In this document: positions 1-37,013 of the stretch, one piece after another
Layout: every line of letters begins with the position of its first letter
Position numbering within the stretch: the first letter of the stretch is position 1
IMG/VR virus record: IMGVR_UViG_3300024054_000172
Span: 1 to 37,013 of that record
DNA length: 37,013 nt
Strand: one strand, 5' to 3'
Source of the DNA: a virus
Notes under the pieces: generated by a model
The model's database searches: none
Told to the model about the DNA's origin: nothing
The model's input: the letters and a program-made list of their open reading frames with translations, nothing else
Position numbers and translations under genes: made by a program

Positions 1-142
1 TCCCGATTTTGACAAAGATCGTGGTGAGGTAATCGCCTACTACGCAGCGGCAACAATGAAAAACGGAGGTCGTGCCGTTAAGGTCATGTCCAAAAAAGAA
101 GTCGAAGCGTTCGCCAAGCGTTTCTCCAAATGTTGGGACCGT
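1..142. repeat. Left copy of terminal direct overlap (circularity)
   Basis: Bases 1-126 are identical to 36872-36997. The similarity continues to base 142 with mismatches at 127 (C/G), 130 (A/G) and 142 (T/A). Both copies lie in the same reading frame of recT, so joining the ends restores one uninterrupted gene. This indicates a circular map of about 36,871 bp, either a circularly permuted genome or a circular assembly, rather than a functional terminal repeat. Confidence 0.9.
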
Positions 143-2169: not shown

Positions 2170-2586
2170 ATGACCACTGAGATCAAATCACATAACAACG
2201 AAATATACGCCATTCTGGCAAGGATTTTAGATTTGAAAGACGGATCTGAGTGGTTTGGCGAGCCGGCGGAATCTTTGCAAGCGCAAAGGATGAATTATCC
2301 GAATGGAAAGACATTCAAAGCCCACCGTCATATTTTAAACCCGAGAATAATAAAGCGTACCCAAGAAGCCTTTATCGTTATAAGCGGACGGATCGCTGTT
2401 GATGTTTATGACAACAAAGCAAAATTCATGGGGACTCTTGAAGCCGGTCCCGGTGACGCGATTTTTGTTTATCGAGGCGGACATGGGGTTCGTGTGTTGG
2501 AGGATTTTGTTGGTTATGAGGTTAAGGCCGGTTGTTTTTCGCTCGTTTCAGAGGATAAGGAATTTATAAATGATCAGGGTATCTGA
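2170..2586 (+). CDS. Cupin-fold protein, first gene of the glycan cassette
   Basis: A 138-residue single-domain cupin. The core shows the pattern KAHRH...QEAFIVISGRIAVDVYD...LEAGPGDAIFVYRGGHG (about residues 55-118): a G-rich beta-barrel with His residues in the usual metal-binding area. Small cupins in polysaccharide loci often act on nucleotide sugars (isomerisation or epimerisation, as in the FdtA/WxcM type) or are of unknown use. The exact reaction cannot be assigned. It overlaps the aminotransferase by 17 bp, which suggests that the two act on the same amino-sugar route. Confidence 0.72.
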   Translation: MTTEIKSHNNEIYAILARILDLKDGSEWFGEPAESLQAQRMNYPNGKTFKAHRHILNPRIIKRTQEAFIVISGRIAVDVYDNKAKFMGTLEAGPGDAIFVYRGGHGVRVLEDFVGYEVKAGCFSLVSEDKEFINDQGI

Positions 2587-3526
2587 ACCGTTGCTTCAAG
2601 GGAATGAAAAGAAGTATCTGGCCGAGGCCATCGACGCTGGTGAAGTTTCAAGCGGCGGGTCATTCGTAAGGCGATTCGAGGAAGCTTTTGCCAAGTGGTC
2701 TGGAAATGACTACGCCGTGGCTGTATCAAGCGGAACGGCTGCCCTTGAAGTTGCCGCGCGCTCTCTTACCATGACAACGATCACCATCCCTGCGGGTACG
2801 ATCATAAGCTGCTTTATTGCCGCGACTAGGGCAGGAGTGGCAGTCAGTCTGCATGACAACATAACATGGAAGAAAGACGGTGCTGTCATGCGTTGCCACC
2901 TTTTCGGGTGTTTTGATCGTTCCCACGGAAAATTTATCTTGGATGACCTCTCTCAATATTGGAAACCCATCCGAGTGAAGGATGCTGGGTGCTATTCGCT
3001 TTATGCGAATAAACTCATTACGTCTGGCGAGGGCGGGGTAGTCGTAACAAACAACAAAGACGTTTATGAACGCGCGAAGTCTTACAGGGATCTTTGCCAC
3101 AGCAAGGAGCGCTTTGTCCACTATGAGCTTGGGTATAACTTTAGGATGTCTAATCTGCAGGCAGCCGTGGCTCTCGCTCAGCTTGAGCAAATCGAAAAAT
3201 TTATAGAAATCAAGAGGCGGAATAGAGACCTTTACATTAAGTACCTTCCGGCCTCGGTAGAGGCGCTGTTTATGGTGGATGTGCCTTGGATGTATCTTGT
3301 CCAAACGAAACGACCAGCCGGCGAAATCGTCAGTCTCTTGAAAGCGGATGGAATCGAGTGCAGGAGGTTTTTCTACCCACTACATCGGCAGCCATGCATA
3401 GACTTCCCTGGCGAATATCCGATAGCCGACGAGCTTTGGAATTATGCTTTTTATATGCCAAGCGGCCTAACCTTAACGGAAGCGGAGATCATCAATGTTT
3501 GCGAAGCCCTACGCAAAATACTATGA
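2570..3526 (+). CDS. DegT/DnrJ/EryC1-family sugar aminotransferase
   Basis: A PLP-dependent enzyme that would transfer an amino group (normally from glutamate) to a nucleotide keto-sugar in the cytoplasm. Family landmarks are in order: an early SSGGSFVRRFEEAFAKW region, the AVSSGTAALEVAA cofactor-binding loop, LDDLSQ (Asp contacting PLP), YANKLITSGEGG with K148 as the Schiff-base lysine, and YNFRMSNLQAAVALAQL. At 318 residues it is shorter than the usual 360-400. The shortening is largest between the SSGTAA loop and the PLP aspartate. The start overlaps the cupin gene and the end overlaps the methyltransferase gene. No sugar dehydratase is present in the cassette, so the keto-sugar is presumably host derived or made by one of the SDR proteins. 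Confidence 0.9.
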   Translation: MIRVSEPLLQGNEKKYLAEAIDAGEVSSGGSFVRRFEEAFAKWSGNDYAVAVSSGTAALEVAARSLTMTTITIPAGTIISCFIAATRAGVAVSLHDNITWKKDGAVMRCHLFGCFDRSHGKFILDDLSQYWKPIRVKDAGCYSLYANKLITSGEGGVVVTNNKDVYERAKSYRDLCHSKERFVHYELGYNFRMSNLQAAVALAQLEQIEKFIEIKRRNRDLYIKYLPASVEALFMVDVPWMYLVQTKRPAGEIVSLLKADGIECRRFFYPLHRQPCIDFPGEYPIADELWNYAFYMPSGLTLTEAEIINVCEALRKIL

Positions 3527-4136
3527 CCTTCTGAACGGCGATAAGCCATACAAACGTGAGATTGAGTTTATCTACAAGTGGGCCGGCCGGCCAAAATGGA
3601 TATTTGATATCGGTTGCGGCACAGGAAGTTATTGGAAATATTACCCTAAAAGGACTGAAATTCTAGGCATTGATAAGTCACCGGACATGGCCGCTCACCG
3701 GCCAGGATCAATTATTTGCTCCGATATAAGAAGCTACAGGCCAAAGGCCATTTTTGACTGTGCGACGGCACTCTTTGATGTCATAAACTACATTCCAGTT
3801 CATGATTGGTGGAAGAACATTCCGATCGCTAAGGGTGGGTATTTTATTTTCGATATTTGGGATAAAAGAAAAGTGGATAAAGAAAATTTCAGAAGCACTG
3901 TAACGAAAGTAAATGGAGTTTCGAGGCTTATTGTTCCGTTGGGTTATGACGGTAAAAAGGTTGATTTAAAAATAACGGTCTATGAATACGAAGACTTGTC
4001 ATTTGTAGAGACCCACCGAATGTATTTATATAGTCATGAGGACATTCTTGGTTACGCAGAGTTAAACGGTTTTAAATTTATCTGTACAAGACCTACAAGA
4101 AAATGGCAGATATGGTACAAGCTCAGAAAAAAATAG
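3495..4136 (+). CDS. Class I SAM-dependent methyltransferase
   Basis: A 213-residue Rossmann-fold methyltransferase. Motif I is FDIGCGTGSYW (residues 37-47), followed by an acidic end of strand 2 (LGIDKSP) and the TALFDVINYI motif-IV region. It closely resembles the standalone methyltransferases of polysaccharide loci that O- or N-methylate sugars, often amino-sugars made by a neighbouring aminotransferase. It overlaps the aminotransferase by 32 bp and the GT4 gene by 34 bp. Substrate unknown; a sugar is inferred from context. Confidence 0.85.
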   Translation: MFAKPYAKYYDLLNGDKPYKREIEFIYKWAGRPKWIFDIGCGTGSYWKYYPKRTEILGIDKSPDMAAHRPGSIICSDIRSYRPKAIFDCATALFDVINYIPVHDWWKNIPIAKGGYFIFDIWDKRKVDKENFRSTVTKVNGVSRLIVPLGYDGKKVDLKITVYEYEDLSFVETHRMYLYSHEDILGYAELNGFKFICTRPTRKWQIWYKLRKK

Positions 4137-5113
4137 CGCTTCTTCACCGTTATCAAAAAAATAGCATCAAAGAAACGAATGCGGCTTTTCCTTATCTTGA
4201 AGCCAAAGGTATCGATGTTTTAACCTTCAAGCAATTTGACCGCTTGGGAGGATTTGGTAAATTTTGGAAAGGGCTTTTGTGGATCTTCTACGCGCCGCTT
4301 CTTGTAATCGGTCGTGGTTACAATGTTATCTACTGTGATGACTCCTATCCATTTTATCCAGCGCTAGTCAAAATCGCTTCTCCTCGTTCAAAGATCGTAA
4401 TCCGCCTGGGTGATCTCCACCTTCTTTATTATTACAAGGGCTTCGCCTATGAGATTCTTCACTTTTTCGAGGAAATTGGATGGTCGATAGCCGATAGAAT
4501 CATTGTTATATCGGAAGCTATGGCAGAGCGGTTGATAAAAGAGGGCTATGAATGTGAGGTTGTTCCTGACCCCGTGGACCCTAGTGATTTTCCACAAGAG
4601 ATAACACAAGAAGAAGGTAGCGTGATGTTTCATGGCGTCCTCACAAAAAATAAGAACATAGGCATTCTTCTCCAAGCCGCAAGACTGCTACCAAAAGTAA
4701 GATTTTCTATTGTTGGATCTGGCCCAGATCTAAGGAGACTAATGGATGTCGCCCCGAGCAATGTTCATTTTCAAGGTTGGGTACCATTCAAAGATATCCA
4801 TCATCAAATTGGTTCTTGTTCTGTCGGAATCGCTTTGAGGAGCGACAACCCCGGAAACGAATACGTTGTCACCTCTCCATTTCTCCAATACGGCATCATG
4901 GGGAAACCGTGCCTTGTGACGCGCCGGAAGGTCTTTGGAGATTACAAGTGGCAGTTTTCAGACGTCTATCAGCTTGCGACACAGATAAAAGGACTTTTGT
5001 CAGACCCGGATTATTTACGTTCGGAAGGTGAGAAGCTTAGGGAGAACATCTTTAAAAACCATCACGCAAATAAGATCGCGGACCAGATATGGCAAATCCT
5101 TACGCAAGTGTAG
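4103..5113 (+). CDS. GT4-type glycosyltransferase (GT-B fold)
   Basis: A 336-residue protein with two Rossmann-like halves. The N-terminal half contains NVIYCDDSYPFYPALV and an IADRIIVISEAMAERLIKEG element typical of GT4 acceptor domains. The C-terminal half contains VPDPVD, MFHGVLTKNKNIGILLQAA, FSIVGSGPD and FQGWVPFKDI, the donor-binding pattern of GT4. The usual EX7E motif is weak: the region around SPFLQYGIMGKPCLVT replaces the common PxxxxEAMAxGxPVV. It should transfer one sugar to a lipid-linked or nucleotide-linked acceptor at the cytoplasmic face. The first codons (ATG 4103 or 4112) lie inside the preceding gene. Confidence 0.87.
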   Translation: MADMVQAQKKIALLHRYQKNSIKETNAAFPYLEAKGIDVLTFKQFDRLGGFGKFWKGLLWIFYAPLLVIGRGYNVIYCDDSYPFYPALVKIASPRSKIVIRLGDLHLLYYYKGFAYEILHFFEEIGWSIADRIIVISEAMAERLIKEGYECEVVPDPVDPSDFPQEITQEEGSVMFHGVLTKNKNIGILLQAARLLPKVRFSIVGSGPDLRRLMDVAPSNVHFQGWVPFKDIHHQIGSCSVGIALRSDNPGNEYVVTSPFLQYGIMGKPCLVTRRKVFGDYKWQFSDVYQLATQIKGLLSDPDYLRSEGEKLRENIFKNHHANKIADQIWQILTQV

Positions 5114-5880
5114 TTATCTGCACGATTGGCCACCCTGCAGGTGTCTTGGAGGACCTCAAAAAACAAACCTTTCAGGGTTTTGAGGTCATTATTGCTTCTG
5201 AGAAGGGTATCGTGAATGCCATGAATTTGGCATTAGAACGCGCTAGGGGTGAGATTTTCATCCGGGTGGATGATGATGTTGAAATTCCTGAAAAGTGGCT
5301 GGAAAACCTTATAACACCGTTTTTATCGAATCCCATGATAGCAGGGGTTACAGGGCCCACATTTGTGCCAAAAGTGCGCCGGGAATGCCGGGATAGCATC
5401 AAGTTTGCCGAGAATCCCGGGTGGTTTTTAAGATGGCTCTATGACAATGGGGATTTTAATCCCGGAGGGATACGAAAATGTGGATGTCCTTCCTATGATT
5501 CAAACTTTGAAGAAAGATTTTGGAGTTGCGATACGTTTAAGCCGGATCACCTCGAAGGAACAAACTGGGCTATGAGGACGCAACTCATCCGAATGGTTGG
5601 AGGTTTCGATCCTAAATTTGATGGTGTCGCCGAATGGTATGACACTGACGTAGAGGCCAAGATTAAGAAGCTGGGCTATCACCTTCTCTACAACCCAAAG
5701 GCGTATCTTTACCACATGCTTGAGAAGGGGCCACAGTACCACGACCGTTTTGAAGGTTGGGGACGAATAAAAAATTTTCTCAGGTATCACATAAGGCACG
5801 GGAAGTTTCATTACAAGATGGTGGTTTATTTGGCGGTTTGGATAGGGTACTTCATGTGGCGAAGGTTTAGGCGTTTATAA
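5089..5880 (+). CDS. GT2-family glycosyltransferase 1
   Basis: A GT-A fold enzyme of 263 residues. The N-terminal strand ASVVICTIG is followed by RVDDDVE (D61-D63, the metal/nucleotide-binding DxD), then GTNWAMRTQLIRMVGGFDPKF and the acidic EWYDTDVEAKIKKLG stretch that supplies the catalytic base in GT2 enzymes. The C terminus (about residues 240-258) is hydrophobic and ends in an Arg-rich tail, so the enzyme is probably anchored to the inner membrane with its active site in the cytoplasm. It overlaps the GT4 gene by 25 bp. Confidence 0.88.
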   Translation: MANPYASVVICTIGHPAGVLEDLKKQTFQGFEVIIASEKGIVNAMNLALERARGEIFIRVDDDVEIPEKWLENLITPFLSNPMIAGVTGPTFVPKVRRECRDSIKFAENPGWFLRWLYDNGDFNPGGIRKCGCPSYDSNFEERFWSCDTFKPDHLEGTNWAMRTQLIRMVGGFDPKFDGVAEWYDTDVEAKIKKLGYHLLYNPKAYLYHMLEKGPQYHDRFEGWGRIKNFLRYHIRHGKFHYKMVVYLAVWIGYFMWRRFRRL

Positions 5881-5881
5881 A

Positions 5882-6277
5882 ATGAATTTTCGTGTTCACT
5901 TCTCAAGTGTTAGGCAAAATTGGAGAACCCCAAAAGCTTTTTATCAAGCTTTAGATGCAGAATTTGAATTTAATTTCGACCCATGTCCGAAAAAACCAAA
6001 ATACGACGGCCTGAAAATCGAGTGGGGGGGGGTATCATTTGTCAATCCTCCATATCGAGAATGCGCCGCTTGGCTCAGGAAGGGTTTTGAGGAATATACA
6101 AAAGGAAAGACAGTCGTGTTCTTGATTCCTAGCAGAACAGATACGCGATATTGGCACGATTATTGCATGAAAGCATCTGAGATTCGCTTTGTCCGTGGCC
6201 GGCTTCACTTTGACGGCCATAAAAACAGCGCCCCATTCCCAAGTGCGATTGTGATTTTCAAAGGCAAAAAAAAGTGA
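5882..6277 (+). CDS. Phage N6-adenine DNA methyltransferase (Dam-type, small)
   Basis: A 131-residue protein matching the phage 'DNA N-6-adenine-methyltransferase' family: an opening WRTPKAFYQALDAEFEFNFD, then DPCP, then the catalytic NPPY motif (FVNPPYRECAAWL) and FLIPSRTDTRYWHDY, ending in FPSAIVIFK. It would transfer a methyl group from SAM to adenine N6 in DNA, protecting phage DNA from restriction or marking it. It is shorter than many relatives (about 150-180 residues) but keeps the core. It lies between two glycosyltransferase genes, an unusual place. A run of nine G residues precedes the NPPY codons. Confidence 0.87.
   Translation: MNFRVHFSSVRQNWRTPKAFYQALDAEFEFNFDPCPKKPKYDGLKIEWGGVSFVNPPYRECAAWLRKGFEEYTKGKTVVFLIPSRTDTRYWHDYCMKASEIRFVRGRLHFDGHKNSAPFPSAIVIFKGKKK
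6024..6032 (+). repeat. G9 homopolymer inside the DNA methyltransferase gene
   Basis: Nine consecutive G residues encode the W-G-G part of IEWGGVSFVNPPY, a few codons before the catalytic NPPY. A one-base slip would shift the frame and remove the active site. Poly-G tracts of this length are a classic phase-variation substrate in bacterial methyltransferase and surface genes. Its use here is inference. Confidence 0.8.
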
Positions 6278-7095
6278 AAATAAGCGTAATCATCCCGACA
6301 ATGAAAGGCCGCGAACATCTTTTAGATAGGCTTCTGAACTCCCTGCCAAGAGATGTTGAGCGGATCGTTGTGGACGACGAGGACTTGCTTCTGGCGGCGA
6401 AGAGGAATAAGGGCGCAAGATTGGCGAAAGGTGAGTATCTGTTTTTCGTAGATGATGATAACTACTTGGAAGCCGGAGCCATGGAAGCCGCTCTACAATT
6501 ATTAACAAAACCTTTAATAGGCATAGTCGGATTCATGGCCTGCTACGATGACAAGCAAGACTGTGTAGCCGACGGTGGTTCAAAAAGGAATTACCTGACA
6601 GGATTTACACGCGGAATAAACACAAACGCTTTTTGGCCGGATCTTCCTAAGCAACCGTATGAGGTGGACGAGATTGCAAATGCGTTTCTGATGGAATCAC
6701 AGCTATTCTTTGAACTCAACGGTTTCGACGAGCATAACTTTCCTATTGATCTTGACGAGGCCGATTTTTGCAAACGTGCCAAGGACATCGGCCTCAAAAT
6801 AATGATGTGTCCGATGGCACGGGTGTACCACAAGTCAATCACATACAGTCCTATCCCGGACTTTAGGAGGCCTAAAAATGCGTACTTTATGGGTCGGAAT
6901 CGAATTATTTATCAGAGAAAGTTTAATAATCCTTTACGTTACGGCGTGTACCTTGGCGTTTTCATGCCTGTATTTGTTGGTTTTTATACGGTGTCGCTTA
7001 TTTGGCGCCGGAAACCGTTAATGATCTACCACTTTTTAAGGGGGGTTATAGATGGAATACTCGGTCGTCGAGAAAATCCATATCAGAAAAGATAG
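6274..7095 (+). CDS. GT2-family glycosyltransferase 2 (rhamnosyltransferase-like)
   Basis: A 273-residue protein starting at a GTG that overlaps the methyltransferase stop. The GT-A core shows ISVIIPTMKGREHLLDRLL, the AKRNKGARLAKGEYLFFVDDDN block with D60-D62 as the DxD, and NAFLMESQLFFELNGFDE...DLDEADFCKRAKDIG as the acceptor/catalytic region, in the style of bacterial rhamnosyltransferases. Residues about 225-265 carry hydrophobic segments (GVYLGVFMPVFVGFYTVSLI), indicating membrane attachment. It should add a sugar to a lipid-linked intermediate. The sugar specificity cannot be read. Confidence 0.87.
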   Translation: MKISVIIPTMKGREHLLDRLLNSLPRDVERIVVDDEDLLLAAKRNKGARLAKGEYLFFVDDDNYLEAGAMEAALQLLTKPLIGIVGFMACYDDKQDCVADGGSKRNYLTGFTRGINTNAFWPDLPKQPYEVDEIANAFLMESQLFFELNGFDEHNFPIDLDEADFCKRAKDIGLKIMMCPMARVYHKSITYSPIPDFRRPKNAYFMGRNRIIYQRKFNNPLRYGVYLGVFMPVFVGFYTVSLIWRRKPLMIYHFLRGVIDGILGRRENPYQKR

Positions 7096-7855
7096 GTGTC
7101 GAAAGGTCGGTGCGTTTTTGTATGACCATGAAATAGACGGTCTCTATCTTGAAAGTCCGTGGCCATTTCCTGTTCAACTAGGAATCACGCACGGTCTGAC
7201 GAAATGTGAAGTTACGCCTATGTTTCTGCGCTTACCGTTCATCATGAAGGGCTGGATAAACCAGGATATCCTACTGCGCCTTGTCGATGTTTTAAAACTC
7301 GCCATGACCGGAAGAATTTTAATGCATGCTTCGTGCGTGGACGACACCCTTATCGTAGGTTTCCCGAATGCCGGGAAAACCTACGAGACATATCGGCGTG
7401 TGGCCGAAGGCGGTGAGTTGATTTCCGAAGAATACACGATAATCGATAATGGCATGGCCGCGCCATATAAGCGCATCATGCGGACGTGTTTTTCGGCAAA
7501 CTCTCTTAAAGTGGCGAAGCTCGAAACTTCGCTTTACGAAAAACTATGGATGGCTTGCACGACCCTCAGAGCTACGCTTTTCCCTTTCATGTACGAAGCT
7601 GTAATCTGGAAAGAGATACCGGCGAGTGGCAATATCTCAAAGATAAAAAAGATTGTTTATGGATCAACCGGGGAGGAAGTCAAAGACTGGAAGGTTTTTG
7701 CCATTCTCTGCGAGAACGAATTTCCGTTCATGTCGAGTGAGTTTTTACAGGCGTATGCTTTGGCCGCAGGGTTTGATTTGATTGTGGCGCAGGAAACACA
7801 ACGGGAACTTATAAAGGACTTTGTCGAAAGTGTCTATCCTGATAACGGGAAATAG
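7052..7855 (+). CDS. HPr-kinase-like P-loop protein
   Basis: A 267-residue protein that begins within the preceding gene, with a G-rich ribosome site. The centre reads GRILMHASCVDDTLIVGFPNAGKTYETY: a His-Ala-Ser stretch (92-94) directly before a Walker A loop (G103-T110), and ELISEEYTIID about 15 residues later. This order (HxS, P-loop, acidic sensor) is that of the HPr kinase/phosphorylase fold, but the typical HprK N-terminal domain is absent and the acidic motif is EE rather than DD. HprK-like proteins of unknown substrate occur in some glycan and peptide-modification loci. A small-molecule (sugar) or protein kinase role in the cassette is possible. Confidence 0.62.
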   Translation: MEYSVVEKIHIRKDRCRKVGAFLYDHEIDGLYLESPWPFPVQLGITHGLTKCEVTPMFLRLPFIMKGWINQDILLRLVDVLKLAMTGRILMHASCVDDTLIVGFPNAGKTYETYRRVAEGGELISEEYTIIDNGMAAPYKRIMRTCFSANSLKVAKLETSLYEKLWMACTTLRATLFPFMYEAVIWKEIPASGNISKIKKIVYGSTGEEVKDWKVFAILCENEFPFMSSEFLQAYALAAGFDLIVAQETQRELIKDFVESVYPDNGK

Positions 7856-8522
7856 GGGTTTCATCGCAAGCGGGCTTGAAGGAGACGGTATCGATATAAA
7901 AGACGGTATTGATATCGTGACATACAAGGCGCAAAAACAATATGACGTTGTGATCCACGCGGCCGCCTTGACTAGTGTCACTGAGTCAATGAGATCTCCT
8001 AAAGCGTACTACCGAACAAATGTCCAAGGGACCCTGAACATGGTTCAGCAGCATCCCGAAGCTCACTTCATTTATCTTTCTACAGCCGGTATCTACGGGG
8101 AAGGCACAAAGCACACTGTGAAAAGCAGGGTGAACCCAACCTCAGTCTACACAAAAACAAAATTATACGGCGAAAACATAATCAAGGAGTTCGCGAAGTC
8201 TTATGTCATTTTGAGGTTGACAAACGTAGTCGGCGAAGGGGAGAGAGGGGAGCCAAACGTTTATCAAATTTTTGAAAGAGAGGAAGTCCTGCCAATTTAC
8301 GGCGACGGGCTTCAAACGAGAGACTTCGTGACAGTCGAGCACGTGAGAAAGGTCATAATGAAATGCGTCAATTTAAATGGCACGTTTAATGTAGGATCAG
8401 GGGTTTCAAAAACAATCCGTCAGGTGGCGGAGGAATTTAACAAACCGATGAAGTTTCTTCCGGCTAGACCGGAAGAGATCAGACATTCTGGAGTAGCCGA
8501 TGCTTTCAATCTTAATTCCTAG
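7830..8522 (+). CDS. Extended SDR-family NAD-dependent epimerase/dehydratase
   Basis: A sugar-nucleotide SDR enzyme, about 230 residues. It starts VSILITGNRGFIASGL, a GxxGxxG-type dinucleotide loop (TGNRGFI). VVIHAAAL, YLSTAGIYG (catalytic Ser/Thr) and YTKTKLYGENII (catalytic YxxxK) follow, and IYGDGLQTRDFVTVEHV matches the nucleotide-sugar-binding segment. The GTG at 7830 is chosen because it begins exactly at the first beta strand; a TTG at 7821 is the alternative. At about 230 residues it is shorter than the usual 300-330, because the segment after the dinucleotide loop is compressed. It overlaps its neighbours on both sides. The substrate is probably an NDP-hexose. Confidence 0.85.
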   Translation: MSILITGNRGFIASGLEGDGIDIKDGIDIVTYKAQKQYDVVIHAAALTSVTESMRSPKAYYRTNVQGTLNMVQQHPEAHFIYLSTAGIYGEGTKHTVKSRVNPTSVYTKTKLYGENIIKEFAKSYVILRLTNVVGEGERGEPNVYQIFEREEVLPIYGDGLQTRDFVTVEHVRKVIMKCVNLNGTFNVGSGVSKTIRQVAEEFNKPMKFLPARPEEIRHSGVADAFNLNS

Positions 8523-9084
8523 CCGTAACGAGAAATTTATAGATAAGTTCGTGCATGAAGTCGAATCTCTTGGGATCGCTCACGAAATCATTATTTCAAA
8601 AGACAGCGAAAGCAAAGGCAAGGGATGGTGTCTTAGGGAAGCGCTTAAAGAATCAAAGGGCGACTTGATTGCTTTCATAGACGGCGACGGTGATATTCCA
8701 CCGCGTATGTTCCGCCGCTTGTTGCCTTTCTTAGAGGATTTCGACGTAGTCGTAGGGTCAAAAAGGATAACCCACTCACCCCTTCGCCGGAAGATCATGA
8801 CCCATGTGACCCGGATATGGTTCAGGTTTCTTTATGGGGTCCAGGCCGACACCCAAACCGGCATAAAGCTTTTTCGCCGAAAAGCCCTTAAAAGCATTAA
8901 CTGGACATGGGAGGCGAACGGATTCATCTTCGATGCCGAGATTATCGCACGACTCCAAAGAGCTGGCGTCAAAATCGTTGAGGTTCCGATTGAATGCGAG
9001 ATCCGGAGACAGCTTGCGTTTAAAACTATTTTCAGGATAGCGGCGGAGAGCATTTGGCTAAAATGGCGCCTCTTGTTTCGATAA
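8500..9084 (+). CDS. GT2 polyprenyl-phosphate sugar synthase-like (DPM1/GtrB type)
   Basis: A 194-residue GT-A protein. LSILIPSRNE opens the fold; AFIDGDGDIP holds the DxD (D61, D63). VVVGSKRI, DTQTGIKLFRRKAL (the QTGxKxF signature) and FDAEIIARLQRAG are hallmarks of dolichyl-/undecaprenyl-phosphate mannose or glucose synthases. It lacks the C-terminal transmembrane pair of GtrB and resembles soluble DPM1 in length. Such enzymes charge a lipid carrier with one sugar for later use by a membrane GT-C enzyme, and one is encoded at 12127-13578. A GGAG ribosome site lies 7 nt before the start. It overlaps both neighbours. Confidence 0.86.
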   Translation: MLSILIPSRNEKFIDKFVHEVESLGIAHEIIISKDSESKGKGWCLREALKESKGDLIAFIDGDGDIPPRMFRRLLPFLEDFDVVVGSKRITHSPLRRKIMTHVTRIWFRFLYGVQADTQTGIKLFRRKALKSINWTWEANGFIFDAEIIARLQRAGVKIVEVPIECEIRRQLAFKTIFRIAAESIWLKWRLLFR

Positions 9085-9746
9085 TCGTCCCATGCAAGAA
9101 GATAGATGCCTACATAGAGAGGTGTGTTGCTTCTCTTGAAGAGATTGATTACCAAGATAAAGAAATAATTGTGGTTACGGATGAGCTGTGCCCAGGATTC
9201 CCAGCAGGAAAAAGAAACTGGGCCATGCAAAGAGCCAAAGGGAATGTTTTTTGTTTTGTTGATGGGGATGCTTTTGTTTCAAAAGACTGGCTCAAAAACG
9301 CTCTTTATTGGCTCCAATGCTATCCAGCTGTATGCGGGCCAGGGGTTCTTCCTCCAGACGCTCCTTTGTCAGAGCACATTGCGGATCAAGTTCATAAAAT
9401 GGTCTTTTGCCCTTATCGAGTTACTCCGAAAAGCCCAAGAATTGTTTCTTGGTTCCCGACTTTCAATCTCATAGTTAAAAAAGAATCGGCGACGTTATTC
9501 GACAGTTACCTCACTGGCGAGGACGACAAATTCGGCGTGAGTATCAAAGGCGGGATTTTCTACCACCCGGATATCTTGGTCTACCACAATCGCCGTGGGA
9601 TATTTCGACCACTTTGGAAACAGTTTGCGACGTGGGGAAGGCATAAAGGCGCATTTGTTGGGATGGCGTTTGTGGCATGGGTTACGACGATAGTGGTGTA
9701 TGCGGTTAATTGGGTTAAGGGGTTTGTAAGGAGGAAGCCGTTTTGA
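9054..9746 (+). CDS. GT2-family glycosyltransferase 4
   Basis: About 230 residues. PLVSIIVPCKKIDAYIERCV opens a GT-A fold, CFVDGDAF is the DxD motif, and LTGEDDKFGVSIKGG is the ED-type catalytic region. The C terminus (GAFVGMAFVAWVTTIVVYAV) is a membrane segment followed by a basic tail, as in GT2 proteins that work at the inner leaflet on lipid-linked acceptors. Two starts are possible, TTG 9054 (close to a GGAGAG site) and ATG 9063. It overlaps the previous gene by about 30 bp and the next by 4 bp. Confidence 0.85.
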   Translation: MAKMAPLVSIIVPCKKIDAYIERCVASLEEIDYQDKEIIVVTDELCPGFPAGKRNWAMQRAKGNVFCFVDGDAFVSKDWLKNALYWLQCYPAVCGPGVLPPDAPLSEHIADQVHKMVFCPYRVTPKSPRIVSWFPTFNLIVKKESATLFDSYLTGEDDKFGVSIKGGIFYHPDILVYHNRRGIFRPLWKQFATWGRHKGAFVGMAFVAWVTTIVVYAVNWVKGFVRRKPF

Positions 9747-9901
9747 AAAAAGCCATATTCGTATCGCTATGTTTTGGACTTGTGTTAATTTTTGGTCTTG
9801 CTTTTATAGGGTTAAATCACCTCACAGAAGATCATGCTAGGATAGGCTGTTTTATTGGTGGGGTTTTTCTTGGATTATTATTGGCGGCGTGGGCATCATG
9901 A
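9743..9901 (+). CDS. 52-residue membrane protein inside the glycan cassette
   Basis: A short ORF (52 residues) that begins with TTG at 9743, overlapping the stop of the GT2 gene, with a perfect AAGGAGG site (9728-9734) 8 nt upstream. Its TGA overlaps the next ATG at 9898. It encodes two hydrophobic segments (about residues 4-24 and 34-51) joined by a short polar loop NHLTEDHAR. It is too small for a GtrA-type flippase, though a minimal transport or anchoring subunit cannot be excluded. Function unknown. Confidence 0.66.
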   Translation: MKKAIFVSLCFGLVLIFGLAFIGLNHLTEDHARIGCFIGGVFLGLLLAAWAS

Positions 9902-10929
9902 ATATTTTAATCACTGGTTCACTCGGTTTAGTCGGTTCCGCCGCTGTCCGCCACTACCTCAACGAAGCATGCGAAGTCCACGGCGTTGACAACGATATGC
10001 GGAAACACTTTTTTGGAGAGGAGGCTTCGGTATTTAAGAACATGATCGACGACCGTAATTACCACCACTACGGCGTAGACATTTCTAAAATAGAAGGACT
10101 GATTGAATATGAAAAGCCAGATGTTATTATTCATGCGGCGGCACAACCGTCGCACGATTACTCGGCCAAAGAGCCACTTCTTGATTTTGGGATAAATGCT
10201 TACTCGACGCTAATGCTTCTTGAGATGACGCGGAAGCACGCGCCGGATGCGGTGTTCGTGTATCTTTCTACGAATAAGGTTTATGGGGATAACCCAAATT
10301 GGATGATGTTTCGTAACGAAGAGGAAACTCGCTATGAAGTGTATGAAAATATGGCAAGCGAAGATAACGCCAAACACAAATATTTTGGTTTAAGAGCCGG
10401 TTTTGATGAAGGTACTCCGGTTGATTATTGCACCCACTCCCCGTTCGGCGTTTCAAAGCTTGCCGGGGACCTGTATGCACAAGAGTACGCCCGTTACTTC
10501 GGTTTGAAGACAGGTATCTTTCGCTGTGGCTGTATCACTGGCTCCGCACACGCCGGCGCCGAGCTTCACGGCTTTTTGGCATACATGGCTCACTGCAAGA
10601 AAATCAACCGTACCTACAAAGTCTATGGCTACAAAGGCAAACAAGTCCGGGACCAGATCCATGCTTTCGATCTCGTCCGCGCCATCGATTGCTTTGTAAG
10701 AAATCCCAAGCCAGGTGAAGTTTACAACATGGGCGGAGGGAGACATGCGAACGTGTCCGTACTCGAAGCCATGAACATGATGAAGCTCAAGAATTGGGAG
10801 TATGTGGATGAGCCGAGGAAGGGTGATCATGTTTGGTATATTTCGGACGTGTCGAAGTTCAAGAGTCATTACCCAGGGTGGGGATATAAATACAATCTCT
10901 GGGCGATCATGGAGGATTTGATGGGATGA
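9898..10929 (+). CDS. SDR epimerase related to CDP-paratose/tyvelose 2-epimerases
   Basis: A 343-residue extended SDR. MNILITGSLGLVGS is the dinucleotide loop. IIHAAAQPSHDYSAKEP, STNKVYGDNPNW and YGYKGKQVRDQIHAFDLV are the features that set RfbE-like (CDP-paratose/tyvelose 2-epimerase) enzymes apart from UDP-glucose epimerases. The active-site Ser/Thr is in STNK (about residues 124-127), but the YxxxK position reads FGVSK (F183, K187), so the usual catalytic Tyr is replaced by Phe. The ATG at 9898 overlaps the previous stop by ATGA and is preferred over GTG 9889. It may make the sugar nucleotide transferred by the neighbouring glycosyltransferases. Confidence 0.87.
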   Translation: MNILITGSLGLVGSAAVRHYLNEACEVHGVDNDMRKHFFGEEASVFKNMIDDRNYHHYGVDISKIEGLIEYEKPDVIIHAAAQPSHDYSAKEPLLDFGINAYSTLMLLEMTRKHAPDAVFVYLSTNKVYGDNPNWMMFRNEEETRYEVYENMASEDNAKHKYFGLRAGFDEGTPVDYCTHSPFGVSKLAGDLYAQEYARYFGLKTGIFRCGCITGSAHAGAELHGFLAYMAHCKKINRTYKVYGYKGKQVRDQIHAFDLVRAIDCFVRNPKPGEVYNMGGGRHANVSVLEAMNMMKLKNWEYVDEPRKGDHVWYISDVSKFKSHYPGWGYKYNLWAIMEDLMG

Positions 10930-11057
10930 GCGCGTATAACCCAAAATACCATGAGCATAAGACGCCACTTTCGAGAGGTGGGACAAATTACCTACGGAAT
11001 TTAGCTATATCCTGTCAGAGTTGTAATTTAAGCAAAAAAAACAAAACGGAAAAATAA
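10926..11057 (+). CDS. HNH-nuclease C-terminal fragment (43 residues)
   Basis: The ATG at 10926 overlaps the epimerase stop (ATGA). The 43-residue product contains HEHKTPLSRGGTNYLRNLAI followed by SCQSCNLSKKNKT, the second half of an HNH endonuclease motif: the His pair, P-L-S-x-G-G, Asn, and CxxCN with downstream lysines. The N-terminal half of a normal HNH protein, with its first CxxC zinc pair, is missing. It is either a remnant of a homing-type HNH gene that has been cut down, or an unusually small protein. Catalytic activity is doubtful. Confidence 0.65.
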   Translation: MSAYNPKYHEHKTPLSRGGTNYLRNLAISCQSCNLSKKNKTEK

Positions 11058-11070
11058 TATCGGAGATACC

Positions 11071-12117
11071 TTGCGGTACTTGTTCCTGCTTAGCCCAACA
11101 AATCAACAAAGGCAACTGCAAAAATTGGTCTGGGTGTACCCAGCCCACTTGGCGATGTACGCGACTTATTTGAGGAACCAAGGGTATGAGGTTCAGTGGG
11201 GAACAGGGAACATACCAAGTAATCTAATCGCGCATTATTACAATGGAAAACTCTATGAGAATGTTATAAAAGATGACTTCCAAATCGACATTCCATTCGA
11301 CCAGCTTCCATTCCCAAACCGAATATTCACAGACGCAAAAAACAAACGCTGGCAATCCTACGGAAATTACAAATACCACCCAGCAACCCACATGATGGCC
11401 TCGAATCTTTGCTGGTGGGGGAAGTGTGTGTTTTGTGTCGATACTCTCAAACTTCAACAAGGAGAAAAACGTGGGCTTAGATCAGTCAGTCATGTTATTG
11501 AAGAAATTGATAATCTCATATTTTTGGGTTTTAGAGAAGTTTTTGATGATTCTGGTACTTTTCCTGTTGGTGATTGGCTTGATTCTTTTTGCCGTGAGAT
11601 GTTGTCAGGAAATAGGAACAAAAAAATAGTTTGGGGTTGCAACATGAAGCCGATCTCTGAGCGTGTGGTTCCATTCAAATTGATGAAAGAGGCCGGTTGC
11701 CGCTTTATGCTCGTCGGCGTGGAATCAGCGAACCAGGATACTATCGACAAGATCCGGAAAGGCCAAGACAACGAGAAGGTCATCGAGAACATGAAGGCCA
11801 TGAATGATGCCGGGCTTGAGGTTCACTTGACTTCGATGTATGGCTACCCGTGGGAGTCCCATGAGGACAACATGCGAACAGTCCGGCTTGTCCACTACCT
11901 TTTGAAGAAAGGTTACGTCAAGACTGCCCAAGCGTCCGTTTACATGCCGCCGCGCACGGCGCCGGACCCGAACCACAAAGCGCAAAGGTATATCCAAGAG
12001 GTCTACAAGGTTTATCGCCATCCGGTTTATTGGTGGCAGAAGATAAAGGACATCCATTGCTTGGAGGACTTCACTTATCTTTTGAAACGTTTGGGGCATT
12101 TAAAACACGCAGAATAG
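11071..12117 (+). CDS. Radical SAM protein (B12-binding/BchE-HpnJ-like class)
   Basis: A 348-residue protein with a TTG start and a CGGAGA ribosome site. The cluster motif is C114-WWGK-C119-VF-C122, that is CX4CX2C rather than the usual CX3CX2C. A strand-by-strand TIM-barrel pattern follows: GFREVFDDSGTFPVG, WGCNMKPI, CRFMLVGVESANQDTIDKIR (the GxESxxxxxLxxxxK-type motif), VHLTSMYGYPWES. The N-terminal region (about 100 residues) resembles a shortened cobalamin-binding domain, but no DxHxxG motif is seen. Relatives modify lipids, glycans or peptides by radical chemistry (methylation, epimerisation, rearrangement). Its place in the cassette suggests a sugar or lipid substrate; this is inference. 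Confidence 0.82.
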   Translation: MRYLFLLSPTNQQRQLQKLVWVYPAHLAMYATYLRNQGYEVQWGTGNIPSNLIAHYYNGKLYENVIKDDFQIDIPFDQLPFPNRIFTDAKNKRWQSYGNYKYHPATHMMASNLCWWGKCVFCVDTLKLQQGEKRGLRSVSHVIEEIDNLIFLGFREVFDDSGTFPVGDWLDSFCREMLSGNRNKKIVWGCNMKPISERVVPFKLMKEAGCRFMLVGVESANQDTIDKIRKGQDNEKVIENMKAMNDAGLEVHLTSMYGYPWESHEDNMRTVRLVHYLLKKGYVKTAQASVYMPPRTAPDPNHKAQRYIQEVYKVYRHPVYWWQKIKDIHCLEDFTYLLKRLGHLKHAE

Positions 12118-12126
12118 CGAGGATTT

Positions 12127-13578
12127 ATGTTTAAGATACTTATGAGTGGCGAGGTGAATAGTTTTGAATTTGTTGCGTGGATAATCATCGTAAACTTCGC
12201 CATTTACCTCAAAACTCTCCGTTTCAAATTCGTATCTGACGACTTTACAGCTTGGAAGAATCCACCAGTCGCTAAGAACGTCTGGCATAAATGGTGGCTT
12301 AGATTCACCGGGCAACTCAAGAAGCTCTCGCCGAGTGTGCATTTTATATCTGGCAAGTCTATCCTTGAGAAAAGTGGGATGCCGAGCAGTATAAAATCAA
12401 ATCGTTGGTACATGGTGTTCATGAAAACAGAGGAATTTGACCATCTATTTACGCTCTTGATTCACACGAGCATCTGTGTGGCCATCTATTTTGCCTTTGG
12501 CGCGAATTGGGTGTCGTTTGTAGCGGCCATGCTTTATTCAACGAACCCCATGAATAACCAAGCGACCATGTGGCCTAGCGGCCGCGGGTATTCTCTCCCA
12601 ATCTTGAATCTTTTGGTCTCAATCAGCTTGCCCATTTTAGCTCCGGCGCTTCTATTTTTTTGCACCTGGTACACCATTGGATTTTGGCTCCCGCTTACGC
12701 TTGTCGGATCCCCGGTGTGGTATCTTCTCGCCTTTGTTCCTATTTGCTGGTTTTTTCACTCAAGGAAATACAAGAAGGCGATAGATTTTAAGCACAAGAC
12801 TGAGGCATTTAAGGCCGATAGGGAAATGGGTTGGCATAAGTTCGTGGTGTTCTTCAAGACCTACGGCTTTTACCTAGTCCGTTGTATTTTTCCTATCCGG
12901 ATCACGTTTTATCACAATTTCCTGCAGTCAATGGCTGGCAACGAGATGATGAAGCGCCGGGCTAGGAGCATGGATAGGTATTTCTGGATAGGCGCCAGCT
13001 TCTTTTTGTGGACTGTCTATTATGCGTCGACTCACTGGGGTACGTCGTTTACTTGGGCTATCCTTGGGTACTTTTTCGGCATATTTCCGTACTGTAATTT
13101 CGTGAGAGCAAACCAAGAGATTGCCGAGCGGTTTGCGGCGCCGGCAAACGTCTTTCTGATGTATGCCTTGGCCCAGGTTATTTCTCATTCCCCAATCGTC
13201 GTAGTAGCTTTTTTTACTTTTTACGCTACACGGGCATGGTATACGATTAATCTTTACAAGGACGAATATTGGATCACGGAAATGGCTGTTATCGAGGATC
13301 CGAACGCTTGGTGGGCCTGGCATTGTCGGGCCATGAAGAGGTTTGACACTCAAAGTTATAGAGAGGCGCTGATTCTTTGGGTTATGGCGAAACTCATTTC
13401 GCCAAAGGAATTTAAATTACTGATTAATATTGCCACTTGTTTAAGAATACTCGGGAACAATAAAGAGGCCGATGAGCATTTGAGACTGGCGGAACAAAAC
13501 ATCATTCCAGGGCAAGAAGACGTGGCCTATGAGCAGATAAAAAATCATCGTGACGGGAAGCTCCCTATTTTGCTATAA
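12127..13578 (+). CDS. Polytopic GT-C glycosyltransferase, TMTC-like, with C-terminal TPR region
   Basis: A 483-residue inner-membrane protein with roughly 8-10 hydrophobic segments. Features of the TMTC/PMT-like GT-C group are visible: a first-loop acidic pair (FKFVSDDF, D38-D39), LYSTNPMNNQATMWPSGRGY (matching the family's HP...A.W.SGR element), and NQEIAERFAAPANVF (matching the ERYLYLPS element). Residues about 390-465 are soluble and helical, with a TPR-like repeat after DPNAWWAWHCRAMKRF. GT-C enzymes take a sugar from a polyprenyl-phosphate donor and transfer it on the periplasmic side to protein or glycan. The donor could come from the DPM-like GT2 at 8500. It is the last gene of the cassette. 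Confidence 0.73.
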   Translation: MFKILMSGEVNSFEFVAWIIIVNFAIYLKTLRFKFVSDDFTAWKNPPVAKNVWHKWWLRFTGQLKKLSPSVHFISGKSILEKSGMPSSIKSNRWYMVFMKTEEFDHLFTLLIHTSICVAIYFAFGANWVSFVAAMLYSTNPMNNQATMWPSGRGYSLPILNLLVSISLPILAPALLFFCTWYTIGFWLPLTLVGSPVWYLLAFVPICWFFHSRKYKKAIDFKHKTEAFKADREMGWHKFVVFFKTYGFYLVRCIFPIRITFYHNFLQSMAGNEMMKRRARSMDRYFWIGASFFLWTVYYASTHWGTSFTWAILGYFFGIFPYCNFVRANQEIAERFAAPANVFLMYALAQVISHSPIVVVAFFTFYATRAWYTINLYKDEYWITEMAVIEDPNAWWAWHCRAMKRFDTQSYREALILWVMAKLISPKEFKLLINIATCLRILGNNKEADEHLRLAEQNIIPGQEDVAYEQIKNHRDGKLPILL

Positions 13579-22954: not shown

Positions 22955-25900
22955 ATGAAAGTAGATGTAATACAAACGAGTTTTAGCGGCGGTGAATTTG
23001 GGCCGTCGCTTTACGGCAGAACGGATATCGCGCAATACGCAAATGCCTGTGAGATCGTTCAAAACATGCTCCCACGTTCCTATGGCCCGGCAATATCTAT
23101 GCCAGGGACTCGTTACGTCGCAACCGCCAGCGATTCCACCCTTAGGACTCGTCTTATAAAATTCGTCTTCAATCGTTCCGATGCTTACGTGATTGAAATG
23201 GGCGACCTTTATATGAGGTTTTATACAAATAGAGGCCAAGTTATAACTCCATCCGGGACTGAGGACTTATCGGCTTTCGGCTCTAATGTAAAAGCACATT
23301 GGAAGTGCAATGACAATACCAATTCAACGACTGTCCTTGACGCCCAAACTACACATAACGGCAGCACTTCGACGATCACTCAATCACTGAGCACGACGGC
23401 GATTGTCAGCACCGGATTTCAACTTAATGGGATATATCATGTCTCGGTAACTGATCATGCAAATTTCACGAGGACAGCCGCCTCCCAACCAATGACCATC
23501 GTCGGATGGGCGTATTATTCAAATAATGGATCAACCCAAGCGATTGTCTCAAAATCCGGCGAATATGAGTTTTCTATTAATTCATCAGACCAACTTTCAT
23601 TTATCGTGAGTTCAGGAACAGCCGATACTAAACTCCTCATTCACGCAGATGGAGCGGATGGATCAACATCTTTTACGGATTCGTCTGCATCAGGACATAC
23701 TATAACGGCCAATGGGAATGCTCAGGTCGACACGGATCAAAAAGAATTTGGAACTGGGTCGCTTCTATGCGATGGAACCGGAGACTACCTTTCGATACCC
23801 GACCATGCAGATTGGGATTTTGGAACAGGCGATTTCACGATTGATTTTTGGGTTAGGTTCAACACTCTAAATCCTACCCAACCTACTATGATCGATATCG
23901 GTGGAACCGCTGCCGGCGTTGCCATCACGTACACAGCCAATCAGCTTTATACTTACGTCGCTGGAAGCGTGATCACTTACAGCTGGACGCCCGTTATCAA
24001 TAATTGGTATCACGTCGCCTATGTGCGCTCATCAGGAACCATCTATGCATTCATCAACGGGACGCAGATAGGGACTACTGCAAATAGCAACGACGTACAA
24101 ACAAGCCAGGGCATTAGGATCGGGTCACATTTTGGGGGTTTAAGTGACTTCGATGGCTGGATGGATGAGATTCGCATTGTAAAAGGAAGCGCTGTTTGGA
24201 CAAGTAACTTCAGTGTTCCTAGCGAACCACATCAGACAAGCGCTTCAAATACATGGCAAGCAAACGATGAAATCACAACAGGATGGCATCTCTTCGCAGT
24301 TGTATTTAAGGGTGACGGCACCGCATCCGGTCATTGCAAAATTTATATCGACGGAGTTTCAAAAAATCTGACTTTTACTCCTGACACAAGTTTCGTAAGG
24401 ATGAGTGATACCACTTCTCTTTTCAGGATAGGGGCAACATCGGCCGCAGGAGCCAAAAACTGGAAAAATAAAGTAGACAATATAGCATTTATTCATTCGG
24501 AACTGACCGCAACTCAAATCGCTTCTTTATACAGCACGGCCGCTTATCAACTTACAACCGTATTTACGCAAAATGAGGTTTTCGACGTTCACTACGTCCA
24601 ACTGAACGACATTATATGGCTTGCTCATCCAAGTCACCCGCCTCAAAAATTAATCAGGACATCAGCGAACGAATGGGCAATTTCAAATCTCTCTTATATC
24701 GGAGGCCCATTCCTTGACTCAAACACGGACACGTCAACGACTCTTTTTGTATCCGCTACGCAAGGGACGATAAATATTACAGCTGCAACAGGTAAAAATG
24801 TTTTCACGCTGTCAGGCAGTACGCTTGGACACCACAATGCTTATTTTTCTATAGGGCCTTTGACAGCCGAAACAAACGCGACCACCGGGCTTAGGGAAGT
24901 GGCCTATGTCAAGATCACCAACGTTATCAACAGCTATACAGCCACAGGTACCGTCATAAAGAATTTGAATGTTGATATATCTACCTCAACTTCAACCTGG
25001 GCTGAGGGAGCATGGAGCGCCGTCAGAGGATACCCAGCTAGGGTTACTTTACATGATTTTCGTCTCTGGTTTGCCAGAACCAATTATGAGCCGCAAAAAG
25101 AATGGGCATCAAAGATTTTTAAATACGAAGACTACGCGCTCGATACAGAAGCTGATGATGACTCCTTGAATCTTCCGTTGAGTTCCACAGAATCCAATGA
25201 GATTCAATGGCTTGCTTCGGCGAATAATTTATTGGCCGGCACGTTTGGTGGCGTATTTGTCACAAGCTCAGGCGGTGACGACGTCGCGATAACCCCGGAT
25301 AATGCCCACGTAAGTGAGGAGGTAGGATACGGATCCGCCTCTATCATGCCACGAAGAATAGGCCATTTTGTTTATTACCTTCAGAGATTCGCTAAAAAAC
25401 TGAGGGAAATGTTTTACTTTTTTGATCTGAATACCTACAAGGCGGTAGACAGGACAATTCTTGCGCCACATATTCTTGGCGACGGCATCATGGACATGGA
25501 CGTTCAGCAAAACCCGGAGAGCATCGTCTATTGCGTCCTTACAAGCGGGACCCTTGCCACGATGACAAGAGAGGTCGATCAAGAGGTAACGGCCTGGGCT
25601 ACACACACGACGAGCGGGACTTATACCTCAATAGCAGTCATTCCGTCTCAATCGGCAAATTATGACGAAGCATGGGTAATCGTCGAGCGATGGGTCAATG
25701 GTACTCAGAGAAAATATATCGAATATTTCGAGAATATTGAAGTGCCGGCAAGACAAGATAAATGTTTGTATCTTCATTCGGCACTCAGCTTCGACGCCTA
25801 TGAGGCGACAAGCACGTCTGCTGTAACCATTTCGCTCTCCGCTTCGTCCGGGTCTGTCACGCTTACTTCTTCAAGCGCCTATTTTATCAATGCGCATGTA

Positions 25901-36425: not shown

Positions 36426-37013
36426 ATGACCACATCGAGCGCGGTTCAAAAGGTCAAAGAGAAGGTCGAAAACGGAGCGGCAAAAGTCACTCCTATCCAA
36501 AACATGATCGAGCAGTCCGTCAAGGAGCTTGGTCGGGCACTCCCGTCGCACATGAACGCAGAGCGACTCGTCCGTATCGCTTTGACTACCTTACGGCTTA
36601 ACCCGAAGCTCTACCAGTGCGAGCCAAGGTCTTTCCTCGGGGCACTCTTTCAATGTGCTCAGCTTGGATTAGAGCCAAACATCGAGGGACAGGCGTACAT
36701 CATCCCTTATAACACAAGAGGGGTGCTGGTGGCTCAATTTCAGGTGGGCTACAAGGGCTATGTCGAACTTTTCTTCCGGCATCAAAACGCCGTTTCTCTC
36801 TCAATGGAAAAGGTCTGCCGGAATGATCAGTTCACATACAACCTAGGATCCGGAGAAGTGAGCCACGTTCTTCCCGATTTTGACAAAGATCGTGGTGAGG
36901 TAATCGCCTACTACGCAGCGGCAACAATGAAAAACGGAGGTCGTGCCGTTAAGGTCATGTCCAAAAAAGAAGTCGAAGCGTTCGCCAAGCGTTTCTCGAA
37001 GTGTTGGGACCGA
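36426..37013 (+). CDS. recT: RecT-family annealing protein, N-terminal part (runs off the end)
   Basis: The ATG at 36426 has GGAGG 9 nt upstream. 196 residues are visible: VTPIQNMIEQSVKELGRALP, ERLVRIALTTLRLNPKLYQC, SFLGALFQCAQLGLEPNIEG and FQVGYKGYVELFFRH. These are the diagnostic RecT motifs (the QLGLEP and YKGY blocks form the DNA-binding core). The gene continues at position 2 of the window, giving about 286 residues in total. Partner of the YqaJ-type exonuclease. Confidence 0.95.
   Translation, partial: MTTSSAVQKVKEKVENGAAKVTPIQNMIEQSVKELGRALPSHMNAERLVRIALTTLRLNPKLYQCEPRSFLGALFQCAQLGLEPNIEGQAYIIPYNTRGVLVAQFQVGYKGYVELFFRHQNAVSLSMEKVCRNDQFTYNLGSGEVSHVLPDFDKDRGEVIAYYAAATMKNGGRAVKVMSKKEVEAFAKRFSKCWDR
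36872..37013. repeat. Right copy of terminal direct overlap
   Basis: Matches 1-142 with three mismatches (36998, 37001, 37013). Each falls in a third codon position of recT and leaves the residue unchanged (TCC/TCG, AAA/AAG, CGT/CGA). That pattern points to real sequence variants in the source population rather than read errors. Confidence 0.9.

Follow-up and report, generated by a model that had tools for sequence, protein, structure and literature searches.

We analysed the virus record IMGVR_UViG_3300024054_000172, which has a length of 37,013 bases (the whole stretch is called the window in the following), and in particular a cassette of glycan-modification genes that it carries at positions 2170-13578. 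The first and the last 141 bases of the window (1-141 and 36873-37013) match at 98.6% inside recT. Because of this match the record most likely represents a whole genome assembled as a circle, which measures about 36.87 kb after discounting the overlap; the overlap is imperfect, with sequence variation at the join. At the level of protein families, the Head-tail_con portal (PF12236, 3e-104), TerL (PF04466, 2e-23), a capsid protein (PF19821), RecT, a RecE-like exonuclease and a phrog_376 tail protein (3e-160) identify the virus as a podovirus: the portal, TerL and podovirus-type tail genes expected for such a Head-tail_con virus were all found. The best isolates for the portal were Pelagibacter phages, which made up 19 of 20 among the matches listed, at 28-32% identity.

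Gene content and intactness of the cassette

The cassette consists of 14 open reading frames (ORFs), all on the + strand, and occupies 31% of the genome, in line with the fourteen one-strand genes and the share of nearly a third given in an earlier note on this DNA. With the listed starts, neighbouring ORFs overlap by 4-44 nt at 9 of the 13 junctions, which may be overstated since the starts are mechanical first-start calls. The remaining junctions have gaps of 1 and 9 nt (two) and of 142 and 141 nt (two). Promoter-like sites were not more frequent than in shuffled sequences (21 observed vs 23.1 shuffled). Homologues were counted in 58 record rows, many of which are fragments and many of which were brought in by searches with two of the cassette proteins, the membrane glycosyltransferase (GT) of the GT-C type and the HprK-like protein.

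The first ORF (2170-2586) encodes a cupin that is sugar-isomerase-like and distantly WbuC-like (PF07883 1.6e-4 and TIGR04366 7e-6, both below cut-off); homologues with 61-73% identity were seen in five relatives, and the gene is present in 11 of the 58 rows. It is followed by a DegT-family aminotransferase of 318 residues (2570-3526; PF01041 2.3e-44), the lysine K148 of which is kept in 7/7 aligned long versions, and by a class I S-adenosylmethionine (SAM) methyltransferase (3495-4136; PF13649 4.7e-6, just above cut-off) with 47-58% identity in seven relatives. Next come a GT4-type glycosyltransferase (4103-5113; PF13692 4.5e-8) and the first of four GT2 enzymes, GT2 a (5089-5880; PF00535 1.8e-10), in which the aspartates D61 and D63 are found in 15/15 and D62 in 14/15 sequences. 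The DDD of GT2 b (6274-7095; PF00535 3.4e-9) is kept in 17/17. Downstream of it lie the HprK-like gene (7052-7855), which encodes a P-loop protein of predicted PEPCK/HprK fold, and SDR 1 (7821-8522), an NAD-dependent epimerase/dehydratase of the short-chain dehydrogenase/reductase (SDR) type (PF01370 2.8e-29). SDR 1 is optional, being present in 9/58 rows; tyrosine and lysine of its YxxxK motif are retained in 9/9.

GT2 c (8500-9084) resembles GtrB and dolichyl-phosphate-hexose synthases (phrog_841 1.2e-7; TIGR04182 1.9e-10, below cut-off), has the aspartates D61 and D63 in 24/24 sequences and is a candidate maker of a polyprenyl-phosphate sugar. GT2 d (9054-9746; PF00535 1.3e-12) has D70 and D72 in 17/17 and, judged by hydrophobicity, one C-terminal hydrophobic segment. 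In SDR 2 (9889-10929), another epimerase/dehydratase (PF01370 2.4e-36), a phenylalanine takes the position of the catalytic tyrosine (F186 in 20/20). The cassette ends with a radical SAM enzyme with a short N-terminal region (11071-12117; HpnJ/PhpK-like, PF04055 3.4e-14; TIGR03471 2e-20, below cut-off) and with the GT-C (12127-13578), which carries C-terminal tetratricopeptide repeats (TPR) and anchors the cassette. The three-cysteine motif of the radical SAM enzyme (C114, C119 and C122; CX4CX2C in the window) is present in 32/32 sequences, and in locus L054 the spacing after the first cysteine is longer than CX4.

One ORF departs from the gene content given in the earlier note, of which the other 13, all of glycan-related families, were recovered. 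The ORF at 5882-6277 encodes a Dam-type DNA adenine methyltransferase (PF05869 1.3e-16; phrog_111 1.9e-39) and is, by its family, outside the glycan set. A DNA methyltransferase gene within the block would suit genes that make sugars or glucosyltransferases for hypermodification of the phage DNA, and phage GTs able to glycosylate DNA are on record (PMC7029224). We consider such a role highly improbable: this gene occurs in 1/58 rows, that of the window itself, the core of the cassette is a membrane GT-C, and no gene for modified-base synthesis was seen among the window proteins scanned, which did not include every ORF.

The earlier note had named a chimeric assembly and wide degradation of the genes in relatives as possible objections; the first was rejected, and so was the second as a general feature. 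The right border is spanned by contigs from two other metagenomes, L003 (3300044489) and L005 (3300044511), with 99-100% amino-acid identity. At the left border, L032 and L072 have gene g3 upstream of their cupin, though at distances of 0.7 and about 4 kb. Complete members of the gene families are similar in length and keep their catalytic residues, the exceptions being two short GT2 c proteins (149 and 163 residues) and the split GT-C of L022. In this locus (5118-7075) the GT-C frame is interrupted near residue 352 by an insert of ~530 bp, for which no Rfam match was obtained at the gathering threshold. The dN/dS values of 0.03-0.25, for which each cassette gene had just 0-2 pairs free of saturation, lend weak support to intactness.

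Conservation and exchange around the GT-C

When the same gene set was sought in other contigs, as the earlier note had advised, the cassette was found in related uncultured viruses. A portal search yielded 27 records, 9 of which have at most 562 bp upstream of TerL or no TerL. Where at least 638 bp are available upstream of TerL, all 18 portal-selected records carry the GT-C; in one of them, G014, it sits at another place in the genome. A wider portal search, from which the best 80 of 208 relatives were taken, gave 53 newly numbered loci; in this set the GT-C was found in 15 of the 17 loci with at least 3.2 kb upstream of TerL, and 8 of these 15 are records already found by the GT-C search. 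The 58 rows contain the GT-C in 45 cases and the GT-C together with the radical SAM gene in 30, the latter gene ending at most 438 nt from the GT-C start in 29 of the 30. The GT-C occurs without the radical SAM gene in 15 rows, mostly short contigs. The methyltransferase, GT4, GT2 a, GT2 b, HprK-like, SDR 2 and GT-C genes are found all together in 13/58 rows. From these sequence counts the GT-C is the most constant piece of the cassette.

Protein distances were compared with those of the portal, in a comparison whose pairs are not independent and for which no shuffles were made: the correlation was r=0.87 for the GT-C, 0.92 for the HprK-like protein and 0.87 for SDR 2, with 0.88 for the capsid protein (MCP). 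Overall r was 0.83-0.92 for the methyltransferase, GT4, GT2 a, GT2 b, the HprK-like protein, SDR 1, SDR 2 and the GT-C, 0.67-0.72 for GT2 c and GT2 d, 0.69 for the cupin and 0.61 for a short DegT; the long DegT offered too few pairs.

The 5′ tailoring genes vary among the relatives. The long DegT is present in 8/58 rows and a distant, short DegT in 9/58. This short protein of 194-235 residues (L037 8887-9480, L038 1494-2081, L036 14579-15163 and others) has a lysine at the aligned position of the catalytic lysine, while most of the C-terminal part is absent. Divergent relatives retain the radical SAM gene, the GT-C and often GT2 c beside different GT2 genes, together with an amine-oxidase-type FAD protein, a 4,6-dehydratase-like SDR or another methyltransferase. 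Such swapping of tailoring genes around the GT-C is as expected if the donors follow host chemistry. In the divergent locus L148 the ORFs 378-1418 and 4196-5119 flank the GT-C/radical SAM pair, and their first residues resemble radical SAM cysteine motifs. HNH_3 ORFs lie between cassette genes in L058 (5473-5943) and L089 (11346-11798), as does an endonuclease-VII-like ORF (below cut-off) in L089 (13746-14249), suggesting that homing endonucleases may drive exchange.

The position of the cassette bears on whether it decorates the virion, i.e. whether capsid or tail proteins would be glycosylated in the cytoplasm for stability or evasion of defences. The cassette adjoins the packaging and structural genes, and its five GTs other than the GT-C are expected to be cytoplasmic. 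In two relatives (G014 and G016), however, it is inverted and positioned away from TerL, and its most constant member is a membrane GT-C that virion proteins assembled in the cytoplasm would not meet. Virion decoration, one of the purposes raised in the earlier note, is thus improbable as the main role.

Predicted folds and proposed role

Two of the cassette proteins were placed by predicted structure. For the window proteins, no Pfam match at E 0.01 was obtained for either the GT-C or the HprK-like protein, nor an NCBIfam or PHROG match for the latter. The profiles of both families had no sequence match in solved structures (PDB chains) at E 10, and neither model had a Foldseek match at E 0.001. 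Both placements come from a second aligner (its VIA rows). For the HprK-like model (predicted local distance difference test, pLDDT, 88.5) all 50 matches listed by this aligner are PEPCK or HprK, at a middling level of Z 7.1-8.4. Pfam Hpr_kinase_C was touched by 1/13 family members (E 0.0037), and the P-loop GKT is present in 17/17. From the model, the protein is likely a small-molecule kinase.

Residues 1-400 of the GT-C model match GT-C enzymes in a range of Z 11-16, including ALG12 (Z 16.2, root-mean-square deviation (rmsd) 4.2 over 299 residues), Pmt4 (Z 14.7), ArnT (14.2) and PglB (13.9). The aligner warns that for mostly helical models Z below ~13 may reflect merely a common arrangement; the best rows exceed Z 13, and every one of them is a GT-C transferase or a subunit of an oligosaccharyltransferase. 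Residues 401-478 form the TPR (Z 10.0, rmsd 1.6 over 74), and the protein ends at 483. The DD pair D38 and D39 is found in 34/35 sequences, the other having a gap. A DD motif in the first loop is described as essential in GT-C enzymes (PMC7801869). There was no sequence match to the Pfam GT-C families or to any Gtr family.

Families that would complete a glycan pathway were sought in 14 records, comprising the window and 13 relatives of which some are perhaps incomplete. GtrA (PF04138, at E 0.01), NTP_transferase, Bac_transf and Polysacc_synt were found in 0/14 of them, while the positive controls matched in 8, 14, 10 and 13 of 14 genomes, respectively. Wzy and WecA-type families had no Pfam match among the cassette ORFs, to which this search was confined. 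The earlier note had reported the lack of a nucleotidyltransferase, an initiating transferase, Wzx and Wzy; this held across the records for the families searched there, and for Wzy within the cassette. Because these four families were not found, precursors, initiation and flipping are most likely supplied by the host, or by families outside the search. Gene content and missing families together agree with the earlier view of a coherent cassette that apparently draws its precursors from the host. The missing families also suit a scheme in which a host glycolipid would be lengthened at the inner face and the GT-C would make the last addition in the periplasm.

We therefore read the cassette, with a probability of roughly 60%, as a phage-encoded system for remodelling an envelope glycan that would use host sugar nucleotides and in which the GT-C would act last. 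Its purpose is probably superinfection exclusion or conversion. From the observed genes, their integrity and conservation, the predicted folds and the families not found, we infer substrates, step order, acceptor, direction of the GT-C and purpose as follows. The cupin, DegT, methyltransferase and SDR enzymes, and perhaps the kinase, would convert host sugar nucleotides into unusual sugars. The cytoplasmic GT4 and GT2 a, b and d would then add to a glycolipid of the host on the inner side of the membrane, possibly the lipopolysaccharide (LPS) core or a lipid-linked unit begun by the host, and the product would be flipped by host machinery. GT2 c would provide a polyprenyl-phosphate sugar, the radical SAM enzyme would modify the sugar or the lipid donor, and the GT-C/TPR protein would add this sugar to the acceptor on the periplasmic side. 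The changed surface could prevent adsorption of related phages or of released progeny and, in relatives that bear an integrase, could amount to conversion of the lysogen. The window's own tail protein (22955-26527) carries Laminin_G/ConA-like inserts (PF13385 5e-27, about residues 135-433), hinting at glycan-based adsorption; in some relatives (L019, L023) these inserts are absent or in separate ORFs.

The structural matches also raise the idea of a TMTC- or PMT-like protein O-glycosyltransferase acting on a host receptor protein such as a pilin, an S-layer or an outer-membrane protein, with the other GTs extending or supplying the glycan. The architecture of a GT-C followed by TPR is that of TMTC, Pmt4, Pmt1-Pmt2 and PglB are among the structure matches listed, and full-length prokaryotic TMTC relatives with TPR exist (PMC7801869). 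The glycolipid enzymes ALG12 and ArnT score equally high, however, five cytoplasmic GTs suggest an oligosaccharide, and the TMTC loop-1 motif SHKSYRP (motif from PMC7801869) is found in exact form in 0/45 GT-C rows, some of them partial. We regard this alternative as rather unlikely.

Several observations weigh against glycan remodelling with the GT-C at its centre. The confidence of the GT-C model is moderate (pLDDT 68.7), and its TPR architecture fits protein O-glycosylation equally well as glycolipid modification. If loci of the wider set with at least 900 bp upstream of TerL are counted, the GT-C is present in only 16/26, and L110 and L131 lack it there despite 3.8-4.0 kb upstream of TerL. 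G014 keeps the GT-C without a recognised GT2 c, GT2 d or radical SAM gene, 6733_183 (L088) has no radical SAM gene before the GT-C though more of the cassette is seen, and L098 has a GT-C with no recognised GT2 or radical SAM gene; because these three keep the GT-C without such parts, the full pathway is not always needed. PF00535 was found in 9/15 and 10/18 of the records searched, the rest including many fragments. The radical SAM distances track those of the portal only loosely (r=0.58), and distances correlate poorly with those of TerL (GT-C 0.34, radical SAM 0.18; portal 0.42, capsid 0.27).

A further step is more tentative: the GT-C/TPR protein and the adjacent radical SAM enzyme could possibly be the centre of a phage glycosylation machine that has not been described before. 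This machine would transfer a polyprenyl-linked sugar, modified by the radical SAM enzyme, to a conserved envelope acceptor, with interchangeable tailoring and GT modules around the pair, and a widespread lineage of uncultured podoviruses would retain it almost as a core trait.

Concerning the lifestyle, a tyrosine integrase was found in 3/14 records (G001, G009 and G012). The window and 10 other searched records showed no tyrosine integrase; serine integrases were outside this search. In G012 (L035) a tRNA-Thr(CGT) gene at 8926-9000 lies about 0.5 kb from the tyrosine integrase (9489-10349) and is a possible attachment site. It reaches at best 84% among the plasmid and phage matches listed, and a search run without positive control gave no match in 34 genomes of the archaeal family to which the Methanoperedens metagenome-assembled genome (MAG) treated below belongs. 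Because of the three integrases, part of the lineage may be temperate, such that lysogenic conversion and exclusion in lytic growth are both possible. The integrases and the tRNA-Thr gene beside one of them would also fit ordinary auxiliary genes with no anti-phage role that benefit the host in a long infection or in lysogeny (adhesion, biofilm, stress), and in a groundwater survey such genes were interpreted as an aid to adhesion (PMC12911398). Since the window and the 10 other records carry the cassette or the GT set with no tyrosine integrase found, we consider this unlikely.

A search of bacterial and archaeal genomes with short peptide patterns of the HprK-like profile hit one locus, L089, in the Methanoperedens MAG nzgw24. 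Its contig (L089 to L091, JAHFDG010000034.1, 40.8 kb) also carries TerL, portal and tail genes, and within this MAG the GT-C and HprK-like profiles matched no other contig, so from its genes it looks like a co-binned phage. The SDR 2 profile matched strongly (E < 1e-90) on other contigs in 10/34 genomes of the same family. This leaves Methanoperedens a possible host and does not settle the question, because SDR 2 matches of 48-49% occur in unrelated bacteria, namely in two bacterial plasmids that have the same phenylalanine for tyrosine. One of these lies within an exopolysaccharide-type cluster; in view of these plasmid matches, the SDR 2 part resembles ordinary bacterial glycan genes.

If glycan remodelling is the role, the share of the 37-kb genome devoted to redecorating the infected cell, about one third, implies strong selection. 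The constant membrane GT-C, its usual radical SAM neighbour and the swappable sugar modules make the purpose of phage-borne glycan genes testable. The cassette also offers unstudied compact enzymes, among them a DegT of about 195 residues, an HprK-fold protein in a glycan setting and a shortened radical SAM enzyme.

Comparison with known systems

That phages alter host glycans is known as an idea, and related purposes were suggested earlier for glycan genes of large phages (PMC7029224) and of groundwater viruses (PMC10980836, PMC12911398). Not found described were the size of the cassette, its ordered conservation, the GT-C/TPR and radical SAM core and the modular exchange: a literature search by title and start of abstract gave no description of this cassette, with most subscription journals outside its coverage. 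Four of the proteins (GT4, HprK-like, radical SAM and GT-C) were searched in 50,697 GenBank phage records and had no match there; the best listed phage match of SDR 2 has 46% identity and is in a 634-kb phage. The word "undescribed" in the earlier note nevertheless went too far. In a groundwater study of 2024, vir_325, a probable member of the same lineage, was reported with a glycosyltransferase and a nucleotide-sugar dehydratase that are 100% identical to genes of nzgw24, its putative host (PMC10980836). Because nzgw24 holds the phage contig with the cassette, this host copy may be the virus itself, and viral glycan genes in co-binned MAGs may be misread as host genes. For vir_325, whose auxiliary metabolic genes (AMGs) were linked to nzgw24, and for other groundwater viruses, the passages of that study on these genes list single AMGs and not a cassette, a core or its conservation.

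In pelagimyophages, clusters for LPS or O-chain combine several glycosyltransferases with sugar enzymes, as here, and were proposed to block coinfection via a changed O-chain of the host (PMC7029224). Here, in contrast, a single, mostly ordered cassette takes up its large share of a small genome. With TMTC/PMT and ArnT the GT-C shares the fold and the DD in the first loop, and its TPR follows the membrane domain as in TMTC. It is unlike TMTC in that the TPR is short (~74 residues) instead of a long C-terminal array of about 10 repeats (PMC7801869). The HprK-like protein has the C-terminal P-loop kinase fold in common with HPr kinase/phosphorylase, by fold and P-loop alone.

The closest parallel are the gtrABC genes of phage P22, Shigella phage Sf6 and others. 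Gtr transferases have the GT-C fold. In both systems phage genes encode a GT2, in the cassette a candidate GtrB-like one, and a membrane transferase, the donor is presumed to be a polyprenyl-phosphate sugar, and parts are swapped around a constant one. The possible likeness of GT2 c to GtrB (the phrog_841 match) comes with AglJ/DPM-type models below cut-off, a length of 194 residues and no transmembrane segment at threshold. That of the GT-C to GtrC would lie in the predicted fold of residues 1-400, with a presumed periplasmic orientation. As the earlier note had pointed out, the cassette is far larger: 13 glycan genes stand against the three of gtr, GtrA was not found, and cytoplasmic GTs, tailoring enzymes, an HprK-fold protein, a radical SAM enzyme and TPR on the GT-C are added. 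Finally, the constant part differs. In gtr operons GtrA and GtrB are conserved while GtrC varies (PMC11436027), whereas in the cassette it is the GT-C that stays constant.

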